The notes under the pieces are model-generated. The model made no database searches. It was not told the DNA's origin and saw only the letters and a program-made list of their open reading frames with translations. From a virus: a DNA stretch of 36,050 bases. Shown here piece by piece: positions 18,185 through 34,931 of the stretch. The position numbers and the translations under genes are program-made. The stretch covers positions 1 to 36,050 of the IMG/VR virus record IMGVR_UViG_3300042939_000219, one strand, 5' to 3'. The stretch's first letter is position 1, and each line of letters starts with the position of its first letter.

Positions 18185-19795
18185 CTACCAGAAGGAGATT
18201 TCGGGCATATCGGCGGGCTTCATGCTCTCGCCCATGTGAACGCCTACGGCCATGATGGTGGCCACGACGGCGTCCACTCGCTCCGTGCTCTTGGCCTTGC
18301 TTACCTTCAGATTCCCGGCCGGATCTGTCTGGACGGCCGCGTTTCCTAACTGCCAACCTACCAACGGATTCAATCCAAACCGCACCTTTCCATCGACCAC
18401 AAGAGCTTCCAGGCGGCGCGTCGGCGCTGTCATGGACGCAAAGCCCTGGCCGTACAACGTGACCGGCAGCCCCTCGTCCGAGAGCTCGGTGGCCAACTGC
18501 GTCGCGTTCCATCTGTCGATGGCCAACTTGCGAACGCGGTGCTTCTGGGCGAACTCCAGAATGTCGGCCTTCACTCGTTTGTAGTCCGTGCTGCGGCCCT
18601 CGGTGTACGTGAGCCACCCGTCCCGGTGCCACGCCGTGTACTGCACACGGTCGTTTCGCTCCCGCTCGGCGGCGTTGTGCTCGGGGATCCACGCCATCAC
18701 ATGCACGTCGTAGCCGCCGGCATCGTTGGGGGCCACGGCCGCAAACGCCGTCGTGTCGTAGTTGCTGGCCAGGTCGAGCCCGCACCACACGTCCCGGCCC
18801 TCGAGCGGCTCGGAAATCGGCTGCATGCACGCGGCAATCTGGTCGGGCCGCAGCCACCGCACATCCGACGTGGTGGGGATGTTGAGCCGATACCTCAAGA
18901 ACGAGTTGAGCTTGGTGGCTGAGTTCTCTGCCTCGCGGCAGTCAGCCGCGAAGGACTCCTCGCTGATCGTCTCGCCGAGCGACGGGTTGGCCTTGTGCCA
19001 CACCTTCGGCGATTTCCAATCATCCTCGCGGTCGGCGGCGTAGATGCAGCCAAAGAACGAAGGGTCAAAGGCCGGGTCGGCCATACACCGCTCGGCATAG
19101 TCGTGCTGCTCGTACCAGATGTGCGACTTGTTCGCCTCGCCGGCCGTTGTGATCGACACGGGGCAGAGCGGTTGCCGACGCGCCGCACCGCCGTAGCGGA
19201 GTGCGTCCCATAAACGCCGGTCGCCCCTTTGGGCATGCAGCTCATCGAATAGCAGGCAATGCACGTTCAGCCCCTCGGCCCGGAACGCATCCGCCGACAA
19301 CACGCGGTAGAACGAGTTACTCGCCCGGTGCACGATGGTCTTCCGCGAGTCGAGCACCTCGAGCACCTTCGACAGTGCCGGTGACGAGCGGACCATCGAC
19401 GCCGCCTCGCGGTAGATGATGCCGGCCTGCTCGCGGTCGCTCGCCGCACCGTAGATTTCCGCCCCGGCTTCGTTGTCCGCGAGCAAGGCGTAGAGGCTGA
19501 TGCCGGCGAGCAGCGTGGACTTCCCGTTCTTCTTCGGGATCTCGATGTACGCCTGGCGGTACTGTCGCGTACCGTCCGGCTTACACCGACCGAAGATCTC
19601 GCCAAGCACGTACTTCTGCCACGGCAGCAGCAGGAACGGCTGCCCGGCTGTCTGGCCCTTTGAGTGCTTCAGCACCTTTTCAAAGAACTCATAGACCCGC
19701 TTGACCTTGGCTTCGTCCAGGCCAGGCCGATGCTTAGCCGTGGGCGGCGAAGAACTCTTCGAGCTCGTCTTTTTTGACTTCGACTTGCGTGGCAA
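18185..19795 (-). CDS. terL: Terminase large subunit, HK97-like
   Basis: A 536-residue packaging motor. Walker-A-like IPKKNGKST (86-94), Walker B LLFDELHA (181-188; D184 E185) and the nuclease-site acids Asp341 (CGLDLASNYD), Asp427 (DRWNATQ) and Asp508 (TERVDAVVA) are visible. The start is a TTG with AGGA seven bases upstream, overlapping terS by 62 bp; the first 25 residues are Lys/Ser-rich and could instead be untranslated. It would translocate DNA into the prohead and cut it. Neighbouring portal and terS confirm it. Confidence 0.95.
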   Translation of the reverse strand: MPRKSKSKKTSSKSSSPPTAKHRPGLDEAKVKRVYEFFEKVLKHSKGQTAGQPFLLLPWQKYVLGEIFGRCKPDGTRQYRQAYIEIPKKNGKSTLLAGISLYALLADNEAGAEIYGAASDREQAGIIYREAASMVRSSPALSKVLEVLDSRKTIVHRASNSFYRVLSADAFRAEGLNVHCLLFDELHAQRGDRRLWDALRYGGAARRQPLCPVSITTAGEANKSHIWYEQHDYAERCMADPAFDPSFFGCIYAADREDDWKSPKVWHKANPSLGETISEESFAADCREAENSATKLNSFLRYRLNIPTTSDVRWLRPDQIAACMQPISEPLEGRDVWCGLDLASNYDTTAFAAVAPNDAGGYDVHVMAWIPEHNAAERERNDRVQYTAWHRDGWLTYTEGRSTDYKRVKADILEFAQKHRVRKLAIDRWNATQLATELSDEGLPVTLYGQGFASMTAPTRRLEALVVDGKVRFGLNPLVGWQLGNAAVQTDPAGNLKVSKAKSTERVDAVVATIMAVGVHMGESMKPADMPEISFW

Positions 19796-20201
19796 GCTTC
19801 GTCCTCGAGGAAGGCGTCAGCCCGAACTCACTCAACAGGCTAGCCTTCATGGCAACCAGCGAGCGGTAGAGCGGCCCGGCCGGGTTGGGCTTCACGCCAC
19901 CCAGGTCGGTGTGCATCACGGCACCGCCCGCCCGCAGCTGCAGCAGGCACGACTGCTCGGCCGAGTGAACCTCGCACAGCGTGGCCAGGGCTTCGCCGTC
20001 GCCCGTAGTCAGCACGCCCATCCGCGACAAGATGCCGGCGAGCTCGTGCCACTTGGCCACGGCGATCTCGTCAACGGCGAGACGCTCGGGCATCGGCGGC
20101 ACTCCGATCGGTGCCGATGGCTCGCGCTTTCGCGGCCCCTTAGCGGTGCCTTCAAGAATCCGAAGGGCTGTCGGCTTCGGCCTGCGTCCTGCTTTTGCCA
20201 C
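19734..20201 (-). CDS. terS: Terminase small subunit, P27 family
   Basis: A 155-residue protein from a GTG with AGGAG five bases upstream. The sequence GRRPKPTALRILEGTAKGPRKREP, then WHELAGILSRMGVLTTGDGEALATLCE and a C-terminal LSEFGLTPSSRTKLATQ, is typical of P27-like terminase small subunits that bind cos/pac DNA and stimulate TerL. It overlaps terL by 62 bp. The 213-bp stretch upstream may hold the packaging site. Confidence 0.92.
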   Translation of the reverse strand: MAKAGRRPKPTALRILEGTAKGPRKREPSAPIGVPPMPERLAVDEIAVAKWHELAGILSRMGVLTTGDGEALATLCEVHSAEQSCLLQLRAGGAVMHTDLGGVKPNPAGPLYRSLVAMKASLLSEFGLTPSSRTKLATQVEVKKDELEEFFAAHG

Positions 20202-20234: not shown

Positions 20235-20447
20235 GAAACTGCACGTTGCGTACCGCTCGACCCCCCCCTACTTTGCCGGCAAAATGTTCAAAAAACCCGA
20301 GAGATTTCGATGCCGCGCGGGGGTGCTGCCCCGTACGCGGTTTATCTTTCACGGCCAAAAGTTTTCACAATGCCGTTCTGGCAGCCATGCGTTTTGCCCT
20401 TGTTTTCTAGGCGTTTCTGCATGTCGCATGCGTTTCGTCCTTTTTTT
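20235..20447. other. Intergenic region before terS, candidate cos/packaging region
   Basis: This is one of the longer non-coding stretches of the leftward array. It holds two near-copies of a 39-bp repeat overlapping the HNH stop (20386-20465), a 10-bp GC-rich hairpin (20313-20340), an A6 run (20290-20295), a C8 run (20261-20268) and a weak promoter-like pair (TTGTGA at 20365-20370 and GATAAA at 20341-20346 on the - strand). In HK97-type phages cos lies next to an HNH gene and terS, so cos here is plausible but unproven. Confidence 0.5.
20313..20340. repeat. GC-rich hairpin upstream of terS
   Basis: CCGCGCGGGG pairs with CCCCG-TA-CGCGG through ten base pairs with a 2-nt bulge and a GTGCTG loop. 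On the - strand a T6 run follows only after 17 nt, so it is a poor intrinsic terminator. It could be a packaging-site element or an attenuator in front of terS. Confidence 0.5.
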
Positions 20448-20465
20448 CTAGGTGTTTCCGCACTT
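20386..20465. repeat. Tandem imperfect repeat, period 41 bp, at the HNH gene end
   Basis: Two copies (20386-20424 and 20427-20465) share most positions, including the minus-strand pattern GGAAACACCTAGAAA / AGAAACGCCTAGAAA followed by an AAGGAC or AAGGGC and an ATG. The second copy supplies the HNH stop codon, so the repeat looks like a duplication of a gene-end plus start signal. It yields short minus-strand ORFs of 26 and 7 codons. A real duplication event or binding-site array fits equally. Confidence 0.75.
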
Positions 20466-21272
20466 GCGATGCACGATTCGTTCGTCACCAGTTCGCGGCG
20501 TGTATTTCGCCCACCATTCGTTGGCCCTGCCTGACTGCATGGCACGCTCTGGGTCTGTTGCGATGCGTGCTTCGCATTGCGATGCGGGTGCCTCAACCAC
20601 AACGACCCGGTCGCAACCCAGCCGGTCCGCCCACCATTGACGATGGATGGCGTCGGGCTCAGTGACCACCAGCCAGGCCCGTGCATGTCGCTTGGCCTCT
20701 GCCTTGCTCAGCGTACCGATGATGTCATTCCGCTTTCGCACAGCAGGGCCGATCCACTTGGCTGGCCATGCGTGCAGCGTGGTGCCAGCCATGCCGGATG
20801 CGATCACGTCCAGGTCGATCACCAAGTCGGTCGGCCCCTTGTGCATATCCACGTATGTGCTCTTGCCAGACGCAGGAGGGCCACAGACAAGCGTCACAGG
20901 GATGACGGCTGGCCGTATCCATTCAGGGTGCAACGTCCACTTCTGCGATGACTCGCGGCCCTGCATCTCGCGTCGCGTCTTCTTGCTGTGGCACGAGGCA
21001 CACAACGTCTGCAAGCCAGACACATCGTCGCTCGGCAATTCGCTCTTGCGGACCACGTGATCGACGTGGGCATTGCGACCAGCTACGATGCGGCCACAGC
21101 CTGGAGCCTGGCACTGGTAGTTATCCCGCAGCAGCACCTCACGCCGTGCGGCCTTCCACCCTTGCGAGCAATAGCCTCGAGCGGTTGCCGATGGACGATT
21201 CGTGTCTGGTGCCCGTGGCCGCTTTCGCTGCCCAACCCACGGCGGCTTGAACGTCGGCAGCCTATCGGGCAC
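20448..21272 (-). CDS. HNH endonuclease fused to a P-loop kinase-like domain
   Basis: A 274-residue two-domain protein. Residues about 33-100 are an HNH nuclease: zinc pairs C54/C59 and C91/C94, core His69 and Asp71-His72 (HVDHV), and His95. Residues 124-260 are a P-loop domain with Walker A GPPASGKS (131-138) and an IDLDVIA segment (152-158), like T4 PNK-type or AAA-like kinases. HNH proteins beside terminases promote cos cleavage in HK97-type phages; the kinase might act on DNA or RNA ends. The combination is unusual. The GTG start has AAGGG five bases upstream. Function of the fused part is inference. Confidence 0.85.
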   Translation of the reverse strand: MPDRLPTFKPPWVGQRKRPRAPDTNRPSATARGYCSQGWKAARREVLLRDNYQCQAPGCGRIVAGRNAHVDHVVRKSELPSDDVSGLQTLCASCHSKKTRREMQGRESSQKWTLHPEWIRPAVIPVTLVCGPPASGKSTYVDMHKGPTDLVIDLDVIASGMAGTTLHAWPAKWIGPAVRKRNDIIGTLSKAEAKRHARAWLVVTEPDAIHRQWWADRLGCDRVVVVEAPASQCEARIATDPERAMQSGRANEWWAKYTPRTGDERIVHRKCGNT

Positions 21273-21273
21273 G

Positions 21274-21630
21274 TCAGCCCTTCATGATGACCGTGGCCAC
21301 AGCCCCGGTGCCGGCCGTATTGCTCTGGCACAGCTTGATGTACTGAGCCGAGAACACCTCGTCGGGCATAGCGTACGTGCGACCGAGGGCCGTGTGCGGT
21401 GCGGTCGTAATCTTCACCGCAGCCCCGTCCTTGTCGTACAGCTGATAGAAGGGGCCGTTGGTCGTGTCGGACACGTAGAGGTCAATCTGCGTGACGTTGG
21501 TGTTGAGCGTGCCGATCATGACCTGGCCGCCGGCCATGTCGAACATGGGCAGCGTGATGACGGTGCTGGTCGCCGTGGTCAGCGTGGCGGCGTAGGTCTT
21601 GCTCTTGCGGCGGATCTTTGACTCGCTCAT
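21274..21630 (-). CDS. Putative minor structural protein
   Basis: A 118-residue protein with a basic N-terminus (ESKIRRKSKTY) and beta strands (VITLPMFDMAGGQVMIGTLN; IDLYVSDTTNGPFYQLYDKDG). It has no recognised domain. The ATG is preceded by AAGGAG and its stop lies directly before the HNH gene start. It belongs to the block between the LamG-like protein and the packaging genes, so a fibre-associated or virion role is likely but unproven. Confidence 0.58.
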   Translation of the reverse strand: MSESKIRRKSKTYAATLTTATSTVITLPMFDMAGGQVMIGTLNTNVTQIDLYVSDTTNGPFYQLYDKDGAAVKITTAPHTALGRTYAMPDEVFSAQYIKLCQSNTAGTGAVATVIMKG

Positions 21631-25625: not shown

Positions 25626-26303
25626 TTACGCACCAGCGGGCTCGGCCTTGCGGGTTTCCCTGGCAGCCACACGCCGCAGCATCTCGACCTTCGGATCAAC
25701 TCCGATGCACCAGTTGGCGTGCCACGCGACGCACCCAGGTGGAACGTCGAACGACTCCCCGGCCCACACGGTGCGGTTGCCGAGCGTCGCCCAGTTGCAC
25801 ACCTTGTCCGATGGCAAGACGCTGATAGGCACCGGCAACTCGCCGTGCATCTGCTCGCATTGCATCCGCAGTTGGTGAATCACGTCTTGGTCTGGCAGGT
25901 TCCAGATGGGCGACAGGTCGGAAATGAGTCGCCAGAAAGCGTGCGTCCTCGAGGTGGACCGGAACAGCATCACGCCGGCACACCACTGCACCACGTCATC
26001 GCTCATGGCGATCTCGTCGAAGCCCTGCGTGGCTATCTGACGCTCGGCCCACGCCGCCAAGCCGGGCAATAAGACAACGTCCGAGTCCACGTACAGCGTC
26101 GGCTCGCCATCCATCGGCAGCCGCATGAGGCAGTCGAGCTTGTCGAGCATGCAGTCATTCCAGCCTTCTCCCTTGAACGAGCCGGTCGGGCACCGCTGCC
26201 GATACTGGGTGGCTCGCACGTCTGAGAACCGTGCGGCCCGAGACAGCACGAACTGCTCGCACATGGCCTTGTGCGTCGGCGTGTAGTAGGTAACGAGTCG
26301 CAT
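25626..26303 (-). CDS. Glycosyltransferase-like protein with DxD motif
   Basis: A 225-residue protein whose central motif YVDSDVVLL (71-79, D73-x-D75) is the DxD of GT-A glycosyltransferases such as families 8 and 77. The N-terminus MRLVTYYTPTHKAMCEQFVLSR and the later GVMLFRSTSRTHAFWRLI support this. The ATG is two bases after the preceding stop. It is one of two glycosyltransferases that lie next to a methyltransferase; the donor and acceptor are not predictable. Confidence 0.8.
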   Translation of the reverse strand: MRLVTYYTPTHKAMCEQFVLSRAARFSDVRATQYRQRCPTGSFKGEGWNDCMLDKLDCLMRLPMDGEPTLYVDSDVVLLPGLAAWAERQIATQGFDEIAMSDDVVQWCAGVMLFRSTSRTHAFWRLISDLSPIWNLPDQDVIHQLRMQCEQMHGELPVPISVLPSDKVCNWATLGNRTVWAGESFDVPPGCVAWHANWCIGVDPKVEMLRRVAARETRKAEPAGA

Positions 26304-26305
26304 GA

Positions 26306-27076
26306 TTAGCAAGGGTGATGAGCCCGCAGTGCCCTCGTACTTGAGGATGACACCTCGTGCCACTCGTCCACGCGAGGGCCGGGTGTCGTTTCGATCCAGT
26401 GGCGGTTTAGGTGGTGCTCACGATGCCACGCCGCGCCGGGCACGTGAGCACCACCCTCCGCGCCAATGTTCTGCACGCGAGCCAGCATCGGCCGCACTTC
26501 GTAGCGGTCGCGTCGCGTAAGCTTGTCTATGACCGTGTCCCACGAAACCTGCCGGTCATCAGCCGGCCAGTGCTCGCGGATGCTTTCCCAGCGGTCACGC
26601 CAGGTGGCCCAGCCCCACGGCGTGAACCACGCCTCACGAAAGACGGCGTTGCGGTAGCCAACCTCCTCGACCGGCGTCCGCTGGTAGCCGCACACGGAAA
26701 ACACAGTCGCGTCTTTCTCGTACACGGTCAGCCCCCAATCGGCAAACCGCAGGAAGTCGCGGCCTGGCACGGTGTCATCTTCCATGGCAATGACGCGATC
26801 ATGGTGGTCGAACCCGTACGCCAGGGCCGAGTACGTGTTGACGTTGCAGCCAACCTTCTGGCTACCAACCATGACGAATGCCTTGACGTGCGGCAGCTGC
26901 GTGAACGCGGCGGCAATGCTGATGACCTCGTCGTTGACGGGCTCGCACAGCAGGCCGATAGGGAAGCGGTCCACGTCATCGCAGCGGGCCAGAGCATCGA
27001 GCACGGTCTTGGTGTAGCCGGGCCGGTTGCACAGCGTCATCACGACGCACGTGTTTCGTTTCTGGTTAGTAGCCAT
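26306..27076 (-). CDS. Glycosyltransferase, GT-A (family 2 / GNT-I-like)
   Basis: A 256-residue protein: VVMTLCNRPGYTKTVLDALARC (opening beta-alpha of a GT-A fold), AMEDDTVPGRDFLRF (EDD at 99-101, DxD equivalent), and FREAWFTPWGWATWRDRW, a strong signature of GNT-I-like sugar transferases. It would transfer a sugar to a phage or host glycan. It overlaps the end of the HTH gene by 11 bp. Codon use is like its neighbours, so a recent transfer is not indicated. Confidence 0.84.
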   Translation of the reverse strand: MATNQKRNTCVVMTLCNRPGYTKTVLDALARCDDVDRFPIGLLCEPVNDEVISIAAAFTQLPHVKAFVMVGSQKVGCNVNTYSALAYGFDHHDRVIAMEDDTVPGRDFLRFADWGLTVYEKDATVFSVCGYQRTPVEEVGYRNAVFREAWFTPWGWATWRDRWESIREHWPADDRQVSWDTVIDKLTRRDRYEVRPMLARVQNIGAEGGAHVPGAAWHREHHLNRHWIETTPGPRVDEWHEVSSSSTRALRAHHPC

Positions 27077-27356
27077 GGACTGCCGTGCTGCTGTAGATGG
27101 TGTGCGGCTCGCCGACCCACCGCAGCTTCCTGTCGGTCGGCGTCCAGTTTGTTTGTTGGGCCAGGCACCGCAGCCGGATGACCTCTGGTGTCGGTGGGGC
27201 TTCGTCGTCGTCTGCGCCATAGCGTTTCTGCAGTCCGTACATCATGCGGAGCTTGGCAAGCGTCGAGAACGAGTAGCCGAGCACAGACGCGATCTCGGCC
27301 AGCGGCACGCCTTGCTGCCACATGCGTTCAAATCGCCGCCTGGTGCGTTCGTCCAT
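27066..27356 (-). CDS. Small helix-turn-helix protein
   Basis: A 96-residue protein. Residues 1-37 (DERTRRRFERMWQQGVPLAEIASVLGYSFSTLAKLRMMYGL) form a helix-turn-helix like those in GcrA-type or sigma-70 region 4 proteins. The C-terminal part is unstructured. It resembles the 98-residue HTH protein at 28630-28926 in design. It may regulate the neighbouring sugar genes or be a small terminase-like adaptor; neither is proven. Confidence 0.65.
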   Translation of the reverse strand: MDERTRRRFERMWQQGVPLAEIASVLGYSFSTLAKLRMMYGLQKRYGADDDEAPPTPEVIRLRCLAQQTNWTPTDRKLRWVGEPHTIYSSTAVHGY

Positions 27357-27360
27357 GGTG

Positions 27361-27891
27361 TCACCCAACGATGACCCACCACGATGGGCATGGCTCGTGC
27401 GTGATGCCGCACGGGCCGCCGCACGTGACAGCCACAGCCTTCCGCACCTCAAAGGGCGGCTGGTTGTAATAGTCGTGCCCGGCGAGAACGCCGCCGACTC
27501 TGACTTTGGGAGCCCACGCCAAGATGTCGCGGCGGCAGCCATCAAACGAGTGGTCGGCGTCGATGTAGACGAAGTCCAGCGAGCGATCCGCAAATCGCTC
27601 GGCGGCCTGCATCGAATCGCCACGCATGACATGCACGCGGTCTGCGTACTGGCTGGCCACGGCCATGGCTTGCCGGAATCGCTCCTCATGCTCGGAGTCT
27701 GGGCCGTTCATTACATCGTCGTAACCTTCGATGTGTGCCCAGCGGTCAACCATGACGTACTTGCCGGGCCACAGAGCCAGGAACGCGGCCGAGTATTTGC
27801 CCTCGGCCACGCCCACCTCGACGGCCGTGCCGTTTAGCCCCATGGCCTGCAGGTACAGCGGGAACATATTGCGGTGTACTGGGCGGATCAT
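27361..27891 (-). CDS. Class I SAM-dependent methyltransferase
   Basis: A 176-residue protein: AVEVGVAEGKYSAAF (23-37) is motif I for SAM binding, YVMVDRW is motif II, and DFVYIDADHSFDGCRRDI carries the motif-IV Asp. This is the Methyltransf_24 type, common in glycan or secondary-metabolite methylation. It begins in an ATGA overlap with rusA. With two neighbouring glycosyltransferases it may methylate a sugar, but a substrate cannot be read from sequence. Confidence 0.82.
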   Translation of the reverse strand: MIRPVHRNMFPLYLQAMGLNGTAVEVGVAEGKYSAAFLALWPGKYVMVDRWAHIEGYDDVMNGPDSEHEERFRQAMAVASQYADRVHVMRGDSMQAAERFADRSLDFVYIDADHSFDGCRRDILAWAPKVRVGGVLAGHDYYNQPPFEVRKAVAVTCGGPCGITHEPCPSWWVIVG

Positions 27892-28286
27892 CGCACCCGC
27901 ACGGTAGTCCGTGCCTCCGTGCCGTAACTCTTCTCCACGACCAGGCGAGCCACGCAGGTGTCATCGCCGACCACGTCCTGCAGGGCGTCGAGCACGGCCT
28001 TGGCGATGTTGTCCACGTCTGGCCTTGGCAATTTCGGGGCGTCTGGCTTCACGCCGCTTTTACGCAAGTGCGACTTGGGCCGAGCAAACACGGCGTCGAT
28101 CACGACGCTGAGCGGCTCGCCGGTGTCGCTGAGCCCAGCCGCTCGAGCAGCTGCTGCCAGCGATTGCCGGTAGGCATGCACCGGATGCTTCGCGGGCACA
28201 TACGCCCGTGCGAACCCGCCCCGAGTCGAGACGCGCGGCCTCGGCTGCGGGACGGGCTCGCCAGGAATGCTGAACGTGATCGCCAC
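27888..28286 (-). CDS. rusA: RusA-family Holliday junction resolvase
   Basis: A 132-residue protein starting at GTG. Segments GEPVPQPRPRVSTRGG, VHAYRQSLAAAARAAG and PRPDVDNIAKAVLDALQDVVGDD define RusA. The catalytic acids Asp90, Asp92 and Asp108/109 are present. It cuts four-way junctions and branched DNA, resolving replication or recombination intermediates before packaging. It works naturally with the RecT annealase encoded at 34041-34703. No truncation is seen. Confidence 0.94.
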   Translation of the reverse strand: MAITFSIPGEPVPQPRPRVSTRGGFARAYVPAKHPVHAYRQSLAAAARAAGLSDTGEPLSVVIDAVFARPKSHLRKSGVKPDAPKLPRPDVDNIAKAVLDALQDVVGDDTCVARLVVEKSYGTEARTTVRVR

Positions 28287-28928: not shown

Positions 28929-30032
28929 TCAGCCCTCCGCAGCCAGCGGCATGATGACGCCGGTGTAGGGACCGCAACGCAGCAGCACCCGGCTCTGTGC
29001 GTCAGCAACGTACACGTCCACCTGCGGCTCTTCGTCAGCCGGAAGGTGACGCAGGAAGTCGTGCAGGAACTTCGGGTCGAGCTTTGTGCTCGATGTCGTG
29101 CCGGCCGACACCACGTCGCACGACACCCGGCTCTCGCCGTACTCGGCCGAGCGGCCCGCCAGCGTCAGCGTGTCGCTCGTCCACGCCAGGTCGATGCCCT
29201 TCGACTGCTCGCTCGTCACGATGGCCGCAGCGTCAACCGCCGACAGCAGATCCGCGACGTTGAGCACCGACGCCTCGCCTTCCGGCTCGCCGACCACGTC
29301 ACGCCACCTGGGAAAACGGCCGTCCACCAGCCGGCCCGTGATGGTCACGGCGTCGAGCGTGAAACGCACCTCGCTGGCGTTGGCCTCGACCTGCACCGAG
29401 CCGTCGCCTACGGCCATGCTGGCTGCGATAGCCATGAGCCGGCCCGGCACGATGGTCTGCGAGTCATCCACCGCCTGGTCAGTCTCGGTCTCAACGCACG
29501 AGAGCCGCCTGCCATCGGTCGCCACCCACGTGGGGTTGCCGTTCGTCACGTCGATGAGCACGCCGCCCAAGGCAAAGCGGCTGGACTCGGTGTCCGTGGC
29601 GTAGACGGTCGAGCGAGCCGCACGGGCGAACTGGTCCGCCGGCAGCCGGCAGATGGCCTTGAGCCCTGCCGGCTCCCACGTCGGGTACTCGGCCGCGTCC
29701 TCCGTTGGCAGCGTCCACGAGCCGGCACCGCACTTCACCACCACGCTCGTGCCCTTCGGCGTCAGCGTCACGCTGTCACCGGTCGCCGTCCGCAAGATGG
29801 CCGCGAGCTTCATGGCCGGCAGCAACACAGCGTCGCCGTGGTAGTCAATCTCGCGGTCGATTCGCACCTCGAGGTCCGTGCCCGTGAGCAGCCCGTCACC
29901 GAGGCGGACGTTCTGCAGAATCGGCTTCGGGCTTCTCGCCGCCACTGCCTTGGCCACAGCCGCCAGGGCTTCGCTCAGTGTCGTGCGGTCCAACGTGATG
30001 CCAGCCTTGCGTTCCTTCGTTGCCGTAGCCAT
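28929..30032 (-). CDS. dnaN: DNA polymerase III beta sliding clamp
   Basis: A full-length 367-residue clamp. Diagnostic segments are PILQNVRL, SSRFALGGVLIDV, VATDGRRLSCVETE, GRFPRWRDVV, FLHDFLRHLP and the C-terminal YTGVIMPLAAEG. It would encircle DNA and tether a polymerase; no phage polymerase gene is visible, so it should recruit the host replicase or repair enzymes. The ATG (30030-30032) has AAAAGGA upstream. Length equals bacterial DnaN, so it could be host-derived. Confidence 0.95.
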   Translation of the reverse strand: MATATKERKAGITLDRTTLSEALAAVAKAVAARSPKPILQNVRLGDGLLTGTDLEVRIDREIDYHGDAVLLPAMKLAAILRTATGDSVTLTPKGTSVVVKCGAGSWTLPTEDAAEYPTWEPAGLKAICRLPADQFARAARSTVYATDTESSRFALGGVLIDVTNGNPTWVATDGRRLSCVETETDQAVDDSQTIVPGRLMAIAASMAVGDGSVQVEANASEVRFTLDAVTITGRLVDGRFPRWRDVVGEPEGEASVLNVADLLSAVDAAAIVTSEQSKGIDLAWTSDTLTLAGRSAEYGESRVSCDVVSAGTTSSTKLDPKFLHDFLRHLPADEEPQVDVYVADAQSRVLLRCGPYTGVIMPLAAEG

Positions 30033-30141
30033 GTGACATCCTTTTCTTTGAGAGTGAACAACCAACCAAAAGACCCAGCACGAACGTGAGGGCCAGACTG
30101 ATGTGGCCGATGCTGATCAAGGCGAACTCGGTGAAGGTCAC
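29896..30141 (-). CDS. Small membrane protein overlapping the dnaN start
   Basis: An 81-codon ORF beginning with GTG in a GTGA overlap. Residues 4-28 (TEFALISIGHISLALTFVLGLLVG) form one membrane helix followed by a basic patch (SLSKKR), and the last 46 codons overlap the dnaN coding region in another frame. The N-terminal part looks real and the overlapped tail is low-complexity, so the functional protein may be only the first part. A real but short phage membrane protein is the favoured view. Confidence 0.45.
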   Translation of the reverse strand: MTFTEFALISIGHISLALTFVLGLLVGCSLSKKRMSHGYGNEGTQGWHHVGPHDTERSPGGCGQGSGGEKPEADSAERPPR

Positions 30142-31446: not shown

Positions 31447-31960
31447 AAGCCACCTCCTGGCACTCGTGAACTCGGGCACCAGCGACTTCGCAGAGAAAGA
31501 TTTCGGCCGGCACAAGCCTGCCTACAGTGACGTTGCGCTGTTCGTACTTTTGCTGCTCAACAGCGCGGAAGTCTTCAATGCGAATCGCGGCCTCGTAGCC
31601 TTCGCCGTGCGCCCATCTACGCAATTCGCCGATCTGGCATGTGTACAGCGTGTGCGTGTCGTTAAAGGCGTACGCCAGCCGCGTGCGGTCGGAATAGTGG
31701 TACAGCCAGCCATTAACTCCGTTGCGGATGTCGCTCCACGTCTCAATGAACAAGTTGCCTGTGTGCCTGGCCTCTGCCTTCAGTTCGACCTCAATGGCGT
31801 CTTGGTGCCTGCAGCTAGCCAACCACCTGTCTCCGTACCGGTGCTGAGTCTGAATGTTTTCAGGAACCGGCCGCACCGTGTAACCGCATGGCAATTGCGT
31901 CTGCAAAAACGGAAAAACCCACGACGCTGCGTACCGGGCCACCTTTTCAGAGTCGTTCAT
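31430..31960 (-). CDS. Putative PD-(D/E)XK-type nuclease
   Basis: A 176-residue protein. Asp44 (RYGDRW) and E59-L-K61 (EVELKAE), fifteen residues apart, form a plausible PD-(D/E)XK core, with the following FIETWSD strand. The remainder (GWLYHYSDRTRLAYAF) is beta-rich. It starts 14 bp inside the methyltransferase end with AAGGACGC upstream. It could be the exonuclease partner of RecT or a phage resolvase. Family is not certain, and an inactive protein is possible. Confidence 0.55.
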   Translation of the reverse strand: MNDSEKVARYAASWVFPFLQTQLPCGYTVRPVPENIQTQHRYGDRWLASCRHQDAIEVELKAEARHTGNLFIETWSDIRNGVNGWLYHYSDRTRLAYAFNDTHTLYTCQIGELRRWAHGEGYEAAIRIEDFRAVEQQKYEQRNVTVGRLVPAEIFLCEVAGARVHECQEVACGPHP

Positions 31961-33011
31961 CGAAAAGCGTCCTTGCTACTTCGTTGCCGTACACCATCCA
32001 GTTTTGAACGGTTTCACGCCCGTAGAGCTCGAGGTACGGGCCGTGACTGACTGACTCAACTAGCGACCGTACATCTCGCGGCTTCTTACTGTGCGCCGTT
32101 CGGTCAAACTGCCCCCACGACATGCAGTCGCGCCGGCGAAACTCTGGCTTCCCACGAATGCCAAGCAGCATGAACTCGTGCGAAACACGCCAGTAATTAC
32201 CGATCCCCATTTGCGGCTTGACCCAAACGAAGCACGACTTGTACTCAAAGCCCCACGCTTCAATAACGCGCTTGGCGTCAAACAGGAATGCGTTGGTTGT
32301 CCACAGGTGCAGGTGGCAATCATCTGCGGCCAGCTGCGCTACAGGCTCTTCGCAAATCTCGTCAACGGTCATCGTGGACTTGTACTCGTTCTCGACGTTC
32401 GCCCTGGTTGCTTTGTTGCTGTAGGCCCACGGCGGATCTGCATAGATGCAGCCGTACCGCAGGCCACGCTGCACGAGTTCGCCCAGGTCGCTAACAGCAC
32501 CAGACTCGTACTCATCAATGCTAGGCTCGACTGCTTCCGGCTTCAGTTTTGCGGCCAACTTGAGCGCGGCTGACTGCGTCATCTCATCGCCGGCCTCACG
32601 GCACGAGGCAATCCACGCCTCAAACTGCTCCTCTGGCAGCTGAGCGATTTTCTGAAAGCGGCTGGACTGCATGTGAGTAAGCCCGAGAGAACCAACTAAC
32701 ACGCTGTTAGTTGATTTTCTGTCGCCGCCGCGACCGCCAGTAATCTCTGGCAGCATTGCCCCAAGTTGACGCTCGGCTCGACGCACAATCTCCATTCCCT
32801 CAAGCACGGCCTCGGCCCCAACGTCACGCCGAGACTTAGCCAGCCTGACGGCGGCCTCGCCAACGTCACGCACCGTCTTCAAGTCTTCAACAGTGACCGC
32901 CTCTGCCAGCTGCCGCCTGGCGGCCGAGCAGAGAGCGATCACCTTGTCTTTTGTGTTGTCCATTTGTGTGCCTGTTGCGTCAGCGAACTGTCGGCAGCGG
33001 AACTGCGGCAT
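31947..33011 (-). CDS. MT-A70-family N6-adenine DNA methyltransferase
   Basis: A 354-residue protein. The C-terminal half has the DPPW catalytic motif (192-195, CIYADPPWAYSNK), HLHLWTTNAFLFDA (about 233-246), FVWVKPQMGIGNYWR and PYLELYGRE, as in MT-A70-like phage enzymes. Residues 20-160 are helical and resemble ParB/DUF3102-like regions (EIVRRAERQLGAMLPEI). It likely methylates adenine to protect phage DNA from restriction. The ATG at 33011 has AAGGAGG seven bases upstream. Confidence 0.9.
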   Translation of the reverse strand: MPQFRCRQFADATGTQMDNTKDKVIALCSAARRQLAEAVTVEDLKTVRDVGEAAVRLAKSRRDVGAEAVLEGMEIVRRAERQLGAMLPEITGGRGGDRKSTNSVLVGSLGLTHMQSSRFQKIAQLPEEQFEAWIASCREAGDEMTQSAALKLAAKLKPEAVEPSIDEYESGAVSDLGELVQRGLRYGCIYADPPWAYSNKATRANVENEYKSTMTVDEICEEPVAQLAADDCHLHLWTTNAFLFDAKRVIEAWGFEYKSCFVWVKPQMGIGNYWRVSHEFMLLGIRGKPEFRRRDCMSWGQFDRTAHSKKPRDVRSLVESVSHGPYLELYGRETVQNWMVYGNEVARTLFDERL

Positions 33012-33783: not shown

Positions 33784-34044
33784 TCAGTCGCTCGCCTCCG
33801 GTGGTGGCTGAAACGTCGGCGGGCTGTAGCGTTGCGGCGGCTCGTACTTGTGCAGCCGCTCGGTCAGATCCGCGATGACTCGCTCGTAGTAGTGACGCTG
33901 GCGGTCAACGTTCGCCTGCATGTGCTCAAGCTGCTTCACAAAGTCGGCCATCCGCGTGCGGCCAGCGTTTTCAAGAAACACGACCACGTCCGTGAGCGTG
34001 AACGACAGCGGCTCGTCGCCGTACCGAATAGTGCGGCTTCTCAT
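33784..34044 (-). CDS. Small coiled-coil hypothetical protein
   Basis: An 86-residue protein whose start overlaps the recT stop by four bases. The first part is beta-like (RTIRYGDEPLSFTLTDVVVFLEN); the middle is a coiled coil (FVKQLEHMQANVDRQRHYYERVIADLTERLHKY, about 35-67) and the tail is Pro-rich. It may bind RecT or serve as a small early accessory. No family recognised. Confidence 0.6.
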   Translation of the reverse strand: MRSRTIRYGDEPLSFTLTDVVVFLENAGRTRMADFVKQLEHMQANVDRQRHYYERVIADLTERLHKYEPPQRYSPPTFQPPPEASD

Positions 34045-34703
34045 GCCGTCACCTCGTGCTCGGCGACCTCGTGCTGGAACTCCTGCCCGTTGTCTTCGGC
34101 CTCAATGGTGCGGGCCGGCAGCCTTGGCTGATGCACCGTGGCGTGATTGACCGTGACGTTCACAGCCGGACGCATACGGTCGGCTTCGTCTGGGTCAACG
34201 ATCCCAGAGAACCCGAAGGCGTAGCGGATGGCTTGGATGGCGGCCTTGTGGCGAAGCATCCGAGCGGGCCACTTTTTCCACGGCTCAGTTCCTTGGCGGC
34301 ACTCAGCCAGGTACTCCGTGACTTCGACTGGGTGGCTCCGGTCCTTGCGATGCACCTGGGCCGTGATGGCCACCAACTGCCCGTCCTCGCTCAGCCGGTC
34401 CACGAACGTGATGCCGTCATAGGCAGCGTGGTTGTTGGCCATCGTCATCCAGCCGTCGATGCCGACGATGGGCTGAATGCCGCCGCCCCTTGTTGGGAAG
34501 GCGTAGATCTCCTTCGTCACTGGGTTCAGCCCGTACTCGTTGGCCACCAGCAGGAAGGCAGCGAACTGCTCCTTAGTGGCCTTGTCGCACCCGCAGGTGG
34601 CCCGCACCGTTTGCTCGAAGGCGGCCGGCTCCATGCCGAACTTTGTGGCCATCGACAGCAGGATGCTCTTGCGGTCGGTCGTGTTTGCAATCGTCGTGCT
34701 CAT
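34041..34703 (-). CDS. recT: RecT-type single-strand annealing protein
   Basis: A 220-residue protein; the core FAAFLLVANEYGLNPVTKEIYAFPTRGGGIQPIVGIDGWMTMANNH (about 43-90) and AVEVTEYLAECRQGTEPWKKWPARMLRHKAAIQAIRYAFGFSG-like region define the RecT/Bet annealase family. It anneals complementary strands during phage recombination and replication. The start at ATG 34701-34703 has GAAAGGA six bases upstream; the earlier frame in the leader is not conserved. An exonuclease partner is not obvious, although the 31430 protein is a candidate. The leader carries repeated AGGACGC. Confidence 0.9.
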   Translation of the reverse strand: MSTTIANTTDRKSILLSMATKFGMEPAAFEQTVRATCGCDKATKEQFAAFLLVANEYGLNPVTKEIYAFPTRGGGIQPIVGIDGWMTMANNHAAYDGITFVDRLSEDGQLVAITAQVHRKDRSHPVEVTEYLAECRQGTEPWKKWPARMLRHKAAIQAIRYAFGFSGIVDPDEADRMRPAVNVTVNHATVHQPRLPARTIEAEDNGQEFQHEVAEHEVTA

Positions 34704-34931
34704 CTCGCGTCCTTTCGTGTCTGCGTCCTTTTGAAAATCCCGCTCGGCGTCCTGCGTTGCGGGTGGTTCGTGCGTCCTTGCTCTGGCGTCTCCGACGCCA
34801 CTCCTTCCACCGATTGACTCCTTCTTGCGGCGGTCCTGTACGTGCGTTCCTTTGTGAAGGTGGGGCAAAAACGTAAACGGGGGGGGGGGGGGGGGGCCAA
34901 CCCAGTTCCGGTTGGCCCGGGTTTTTTTGGG
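34704..34931. other. Leader of recT with repeated Shine-Dalgarno-like motifs
   Basis: This 228-bp gap holds AGGACGC on the - strand at 34707, 34723, 34747 and 34772 (spacing 16, 24, 25), a relaxed AGGAACGC at 34844 and a TGGCGTC-TCC-GACGCCA hairpin (34784-34800). It also carries an 18-base G run (34879-34896). No clear promoter is visible; it may be an RNA leader controlling RecT output. Confidence 0.6.
34879..34928 (+). terminator. G18 tract, 9-bp hairpin and T7 run
   Basis: An 18-base G run runs into GGGCCAACC-CAGTTCC-GGTTGGCCC (34894-34918) followed by GGG and TTTTTTT (34922-34928). The T tract is on the + strand, so it would stop rightward transcription; the leftward genes would read it as A7 before the hairpin. 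It could block antisense reading into the control region. The long G run also slows polymerase or may be an assembly artefact. Confidence 0.55.

Follow-up and report, generated by a model that had tools for sequence, protein, structure and literature searches.

An HNH nuclease-kinase fusion protein encoded beside cos and the terminase genes: a known phage family with an optional kinase

A protein that joins an HNH nuclease domain to a P-loop kinase domain is encoded beside the cohesive-end site and the terminase genes in the viral DNA studied here (IMG/VR record IMGVR_UViG_3300042939_000219, positions 1 to 36,050; all 36,050 nucleotides are referred to as the window). The protein family is already known and widespread (PHROG 4581), and the kinase tail is optional in phages with the same terminase. 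To this picture the present analysis adds the position of cos, which maps to 20328-20339 and so separates the fusion gene from the gene for the small terminase subunit (TerS). It also adds a near-isogenic pair of phages, one with and one without the kinase, whose swap boundary lies at cos, and the absence from the kinase of an arginine of polynucleotide kinases (PNKs).

The fusion protein and its two domains

The initial annotation proposed an HNH nuclease and a P-loop kinase in a single polypeptide beside terS, and the gene bears this out. The open reading frame has a GTG start and runs for 274 codons with no interruption, so a frame break splitting the gene into separately expressed halves is rejected. 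The features of the gene and its upstream neighbor are as follows.

20448-21272, minus strand: HNH-kinase fusion gene, 274 aa, single open frame
21274-21630, minus strand: 118-aa gene upstream of the fusion, its stop one base ahead of the fusion GTG
20943-21173, minus strand: HNH nuclease domain, residues 34-110 (Pfam, match to GVE2 HNHE 5h0m, conservation)
20487-20909, minus strand: P-loop kinase domain, residues 122-262 (AAA_33, AlphaFold, Foldseek)
20859-20882, minus strand: Walker A motif GPPASGKS, residues 131-138 (conserved in fused relatives)
20805-20816, minus strand: Asp-Leu-Asp-Val, residues 153-156 (conservation, profile alignment to 4gp7), with no Arg at +3 (Ala158)

Pfam places both domains above its curated cut-offs (E 2e-8 for HNH, PF01844, residues 54-101; E 3e-7 for AAA_33, PF13671, residues 126-239), and the Walker A motif GPPASGKS noted in the initial annotation occupies residues 131-138. 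The best PHROG match, 4581, covers residues 31-266 (1e-48) and is named "terminase small subunit." For the 118-aa neighbor, Pfam and PHROG searches gave no confident family. The full fusion is kept in related contigs (L001-L010 and L030) at 74-98% identity and the kinase part has a dN/dS of 0.08-0.15, which together indicate that the pairing of the domains exceeds chance. Both domains evolve under purifying selection, and both active sites are conserved in the fused form.

The closest solved relative of the HNH part in profile searches is the packaging-type nuclease GVE2 HNHE (5h0m, E 5.6e-21). The window protein carries C54, C59, D71-H72, C91, C94, and H95, so the HNH histidines H72 and H95 are retained. 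The middle Asn, 80% conserved across the family, is Gly86 in the clade of the window. Reduced rather than absent nicking is plausible for such a domain, since the GVE2 mutant N109A, altered at the counterpart of Gly86, lost 60% of its activity (PMC5304195). The assignment of the HNH half as a nuclease is well supported, and the half presumably cuts DNA. Two other identities for the protein were considered and rejected: matches to the defense proteins DpdF, ZorE, and PtuB are weak and confined to the HNH part, and the match to an IscB-like nuclease reaches 37 bits where the cut-off is 175, again over the HNH part only.

The second domain has a well-supported kinase fold and is probably active, to judge from its conserved residues. 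Among 54 nonredundant fused relatives, the Walker A residues G131, P133, G136, and K137 are invariant (54/54), D153 is 98% conserved, D155 96%, R181 96%, and W253 98%. Two arginines that align with the lid region of Clostridium thermocellum Pnkp are also kept (R236 in 85% and R243 in 100%). The AlphaFold model has a mean pLDDT of 87.9, with the kinase domain at about 86-98 per ten-residue block. Foldseek assigns the kinase model to the NMP-kinase/PNK superfamily, with the best E-value for a dephospho-CoA kinase (3e-6). By E-value, dephospho-CoA and gluconate kinases come ahead of PNK, and shikimate kinases are favored too; the highest target-normalized TM-score among the PDB rows listed, 0.62, belongs to the PNK chain 4gp6_B. 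A profile of the kinase alone matches adenylate kinase 8 (1.4e-7) and then the C. thermocellum Pnkp kinase (1.2e-3) as its first PDB entries. A GTPase-like fold, which the initial annotation had named as the finding that would speak against a kinase, is rejected by Pfam, the PDB profile search, and Foldseek; no GTPase is found among the best 50 PDB matches of the model.

The second domain is likely a 5' polynucleotide kinase, with one of the features examined absent. It has the P-loop kinase fold in common with T4 Pnk and the C. thermocellum Pnkp kinase (4gp6, 4gp7), and it aligns with Pnkp at the Walker A motif, at the Asp of the general base, and at the lid Arg. D155 falls on the putative general base of Pnkp in the profile alignment to 4gp7, a residue that we take to be D35 in T4 and D38 in C. 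thermocellum. The acceptor-phosphate Arg of the D-x-x-R motif is presumably R38 and R41 in the same two enzymes; the window protein has Ala158 at that position, and Arg is missing there in the aligned relatives as well. Candidates for a residue that takes its place are R181 and R211. Unlike Pnkp and T4 Pnk, the kinase of the window is also fused to an HNH domain rather than to a phosphatase or ligase, and Pfam finds no phosphatase domain in the protein. A second PHROG family, phrog_9644, named head maturation protease, also matches the kinase domain (residues 126-256), which suggests that another head or packaging protein may carry this domain as well.

The cos site and the terminase genes

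The initial annotation put the fusion gene beside terS. TerS is indeed the adjoining gene, and to this must be added a 213-nt noncoding gap between the two that holds the mapped cos site. The elements of this region are listed here.

20235-20447, minus strand: 213-nt noncoding gap between the fusion gene and TerS, containing cos (ORF positions, contig ends)
20352-20368, minus strand: left-arm motif GTGAAAACTTTTGGCCG, upstream of cos, conserved, accompanying the HNH type with or without kinase
20328-20339, minus strand: mapped cos, CGCGTACGGGGC on the minus strand (viral contig termini)
20304-20316, minus strand: right-arm element GCGGCATCGAAAT, candidate TerS-binding site, conserved across contig starts
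19734-20234, minus strand: canonical TerS (PF05119 2.5e-17, phrog_83 7.8e-28), start possibly at 20201
18185-19795, minus strand: TerL, the large subunit, with ATPase and nuclease domains (PF20441 4e-48, PF03354 2.7e-26, phrog_9 5e-154)

The mapping rests on where viral contigs end. In the TerS scan, 20 contigs begin exactly at the base matching 20327, and more divergent contigs also begin with the same AGC. One relative of 38,449 bp (L103, the same as L007) starts at the base matching 20327 and stops at the one that corresponds to 20340, so that the 12 nt CGCGTACGGGGC are absent from both of its ends. Such a gap fits 3' overhangs trimmed in library making, and the cohesive ends would then be of the 3' type. 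HK97 has 3' overhangs of 10 nt (PMC11331095), given as 12 in one other passage. Seven further fusion loci end 8-91 nt past the fusion stop, and in the records of Lactobacillus phages A2, J-1, and LF1 and Gordonia phage McGonagall the sequence ends just past this gene. On this evidence the fusion closes the virion genome of the window's phage as its last gene, and TerS opens it.

The left-arm motif, GTGAAAACTTT(T/G)GGC with small variations, tracks the HNH type of the window whether the kinase is present or not; L149, L151, and L154 have a different left arm, as do L020-L022, in which TerS is divergent. The automatic motif search misplaced the arm in the window, L001, L002, L005, L006, L135, and L165; that of the window was read directly. 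This co-variation suggests that the HNH half may read the left arm. In the right arm, GCGGCATCGAAAT is proposed as a TerS-binding site by analogy with HK97, whose TerS site lies at +15 to +29 (PMC11331095). The gap (20235-20447) also holds a G-run, TAGGGGGGGG, and similar G-runs lie just ahead of the contig ends in four distant fusion phages (L060, L069, L082, L086).

Downstream, TerL is followed by portal, prohead protease, and capsid genes. For TerS itself, the match to many relatives starts no earlier than residues 10-16. Pfam finds no small-terminase domain family in the fusion protein, PF05119 belonging to the neighboring gene, and the idea that the fusion is the true TerS is rejected because TerS is encoded separately next door. 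The label "terminase small subunit" that public records give to HNH-kinase proteins is thus misleading. Elsewhere the window encodes two putative glycosyltransferases (Nucleotid_trans and GNT-I, 25626-27220) between the replication and packaging regions, RusA (27888-28286), a DNA polymerase III beta clamp and an MT-A70 DNA methyltransferase (28929-30065 and 31947-33011), and RecT (34041-34868).

Distribution of the family and exchange of the kinase

The suggestion that the fusion had gone undescribed does not survive comparison with existing records. The record note of Lactobacillus phage J-1 gp63 reads "HNH endonuclease/P-loop NTPase domain," ORF57 of BH1 appears as "Small terminase subunit/HNH endonuclease" (PMC6950654), and Gordonia phage McGonagall gp27, an HNH and kinase protein, is named polynucleotide kinase. 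In LJ, orf34 is a 267-aa fusion immediately before terS-terL; it shares 34% identity with the protein of the window across 201 residues. No biochemical study of an HNH-kinase fusion was found in the open-access literature searched.

The PHROG 4581 proteins J-1 gp63, LJ orf34, and BH1 ORF57 likewise have HNH followed by a P-loop, before cos or terS. Compared with these relatives, the window protein has Gly in place of the HNH Asn; compared with LJ and J-1, it has a longer interdomain insert and a C-terminal WW..Y motif that they lack. McGonagall gp27 is also fused and also sits at the genome end, yet it is shorter and about 31% identical. At the genome end of Mycobacterium phage BigNuz, the HNH and PNK parts are two separate proteins, unlike the fusion of the window: gp81, which the RefSeq copy names HNH endonuclease, and gp82, the polynucleotide kinase, with a 4-nt overlap between their genes. 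HK97 gp74 and GVE2 HNHE adjoin the terminase and cos, as the window HNH does, and have no kinase domain. In phage A2 (L023:4878-5680) what looks like a frameshift, when compared with J-1, separates the HNH half from the kinase half, and the label of small terminase subunit is given to the latter alone.

The expectation that the fusion would recur next to terS in other phages is strongly supported. A viral-contig scan with alignment A1 returned 434 relatives, from which 80 loci were kept; nearly all of these roughly 80 loci are full fusions, and in most of those with downstream sequence TerL lies about 0.55-2 kb after the fusion stop. A genome-collection scan with alignment A3 added four relatives at full length, in contigs of Pseudaminobacter, Arsenicitalea, and Devosia.

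Among close relatives, the kinase comes and goes. A TerS-TerL tree of 12 fusion contigs and 24 contigs with a kinase-less HNH gene calls for 6 changes in kinase presence or absence, 5 of them forced by well-supported branches. One near-identical pair is L010, which has the fusion, and L149, which has a different HNH protein of 306 aa. Their sequences agree completely for 940 bp upstream and to 99.06% for 3,077 bp downstream; the swap lies between about codon 18 and cos, with strict identity resuming within the cos site. In coordinates, L010:4055-4817 corresponds to L149:940-2182, the last gene being the one replaced, and the breakpoints recur in L151. Another boundary is seen between L010 and L014, which has HNH only: residues 1-70 are 100% identical and the next 25 only 40%, with divergence just after HVDH. 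None of the eight HNH-only records searched, most of them fragments, has AAA_33 above the cut-off. Since relatives whose packaging DNA is very similar (99% identical in one pair) lack the kinase, packaging does not need it.

Possible roles of the kinase at the packaging site

The reading we prefer, tentatively and at a little less than an even chance, is that the protein is the packaging HNH of an HK97-type cos phage, a cos-cleavage helper of the gp74 kind with an accessory PNK-like kinase for 5'-OH DNA ends at or near cos. HK97 gp74 stimulates cos cleavage in vitro, and the HK97 ends are 3' overhangs (PMC11331095). The N-terminal HNH domain would likewise help terminase to cut concatemers at the adjacent cos. 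The kinase, accessory at the same place, would most likely use ATP to phosphorylate 5'-OH termini in or close to cos, and cohesive ends damaged or opened by nucleases would stay ligatable. We infer nuclease activity, phosphotransfer, a polynucleotide substrate, and action at cos.

Cuts by HNH and terminase nucleases should already carry 5'-phosphates, so ordinary cos cutting offers the kinase no substrate. Circularization needs 5'-phosphates, and a kinase at the cohesive ends would matter upon their loss; one that is useful only under some conditions would match the frequent gain and loss. The preferred reading is favored by the two domains, the conserved catalytic residues, the dN/dS of the kinase, the cos-side last-gene position, the recurrence near TerL, the HNH and PNK neighbors of BigNuz, HK97 gp74, and the TM-score of 4gp6_B. 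Against it stand the dispensability of the kinase, the 5'-phosphates left by cleavage, Ala158, the order of the Foldseek E-values, Gly86, and the lack of a ligase, as the scanned ORFs of the window yielded neither a DNA nor an RNA ligase. The end-processing role at packaging that the initial annotation proposed stands insofar as a nuclease and a kinase fold share one chain whose gene abuts cos, a position in keeping with action on DNA ends, and is weakened by a kinase that the cognate terminase can do without. An optional kinase lacking the D-x-x-R Arg leaves 5'-end kinase activity not established.

The main rival, in our judgment unlikely, is that the slot next to cos acts as a hotspot where HNH alleles are exchanged, by homing-like or break-driven means, and that the kinase is a passenger or an end-processing part of the exchange rather than of packaging. 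At least five presence/absence switches on the TerS-TerL tree, the different HNH genes between near-identical flanks in L010 and L149 (and L151) with a boundary in cos, and the break between L010 and L014 after their first 70 residues all fit such exchange. Ordinary phage recombination at a genome end predicts the same pattern, however, and every allele seen encodes an HNH in the slot, as a needed packaging function would. That the left cos arm varies with the HNH allele is also expected of a functional HNH-cos pair. A more specific version of the packaging role, rather doubtful as a whole, would have the HNH half pair with its own left cos arm and nick one strand, and the kinase half keep or restore the 5'-phosphates of the cohesive ends in the face of host nucleases or phosphatases, with kinase-plus and kinase-minus alleles swapping as a cos-bounded cassette.

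Alternatively, the substrate of the kinase could be a nucleotide, some metabolite, or a base in DNA, which we consider improbable: the Foldseek preference for dephospho-CoA, gluconate, and shikimate kinases and the missing acceptor-phosphate Arg point that way, as does a weak match of 1 of 20 kinase sequences to a 5-hmdU DNA kinase model (E 0.019), but no hydroxymethyl-pyrimidine or nucleotide-synthesis genes were found among the window ORFs scanned, and the coupling to a cos-side HNH gene is lasting. Marginally less probable again is a T4 Pnk-like enzyme, merely attached to the HNH, that mends tRNA or mRNA ends cut by host defense nucleases. The domain is PNK-like, and phage Pnk and RNA ligase systems of this kind have been proposed in actinophages; the lack of an RNA ligase among the ORFs scanned makes RNA repair less likely, and the protein has no phosphatase domain, is fused to a DNA-nuclease fold, and keeps a constant cos-side position across many lineages. 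The least probable of these readings makes the P-loop domain an ATP- and DNA-binding module without a working kinase, an ATP-gated regulator of the terminase type. The names of phrog_4581 and several Lactobacillus records would agree with it, yet the canonical TerS is encoded next door, and the near-invariance of Walker A, the D155 base, and the lid Arg243 goes beyond the needs of ATP binding alone.

HNH-kinase relatives occur in hundreds of viral contigs, with hosts from several bacterial phyla, and typically lie beside terminase genes. With cos mapped and the near-isogenic L010 and L149 to compare, the question of what a kinase does at the packaging site becomes directly testable.
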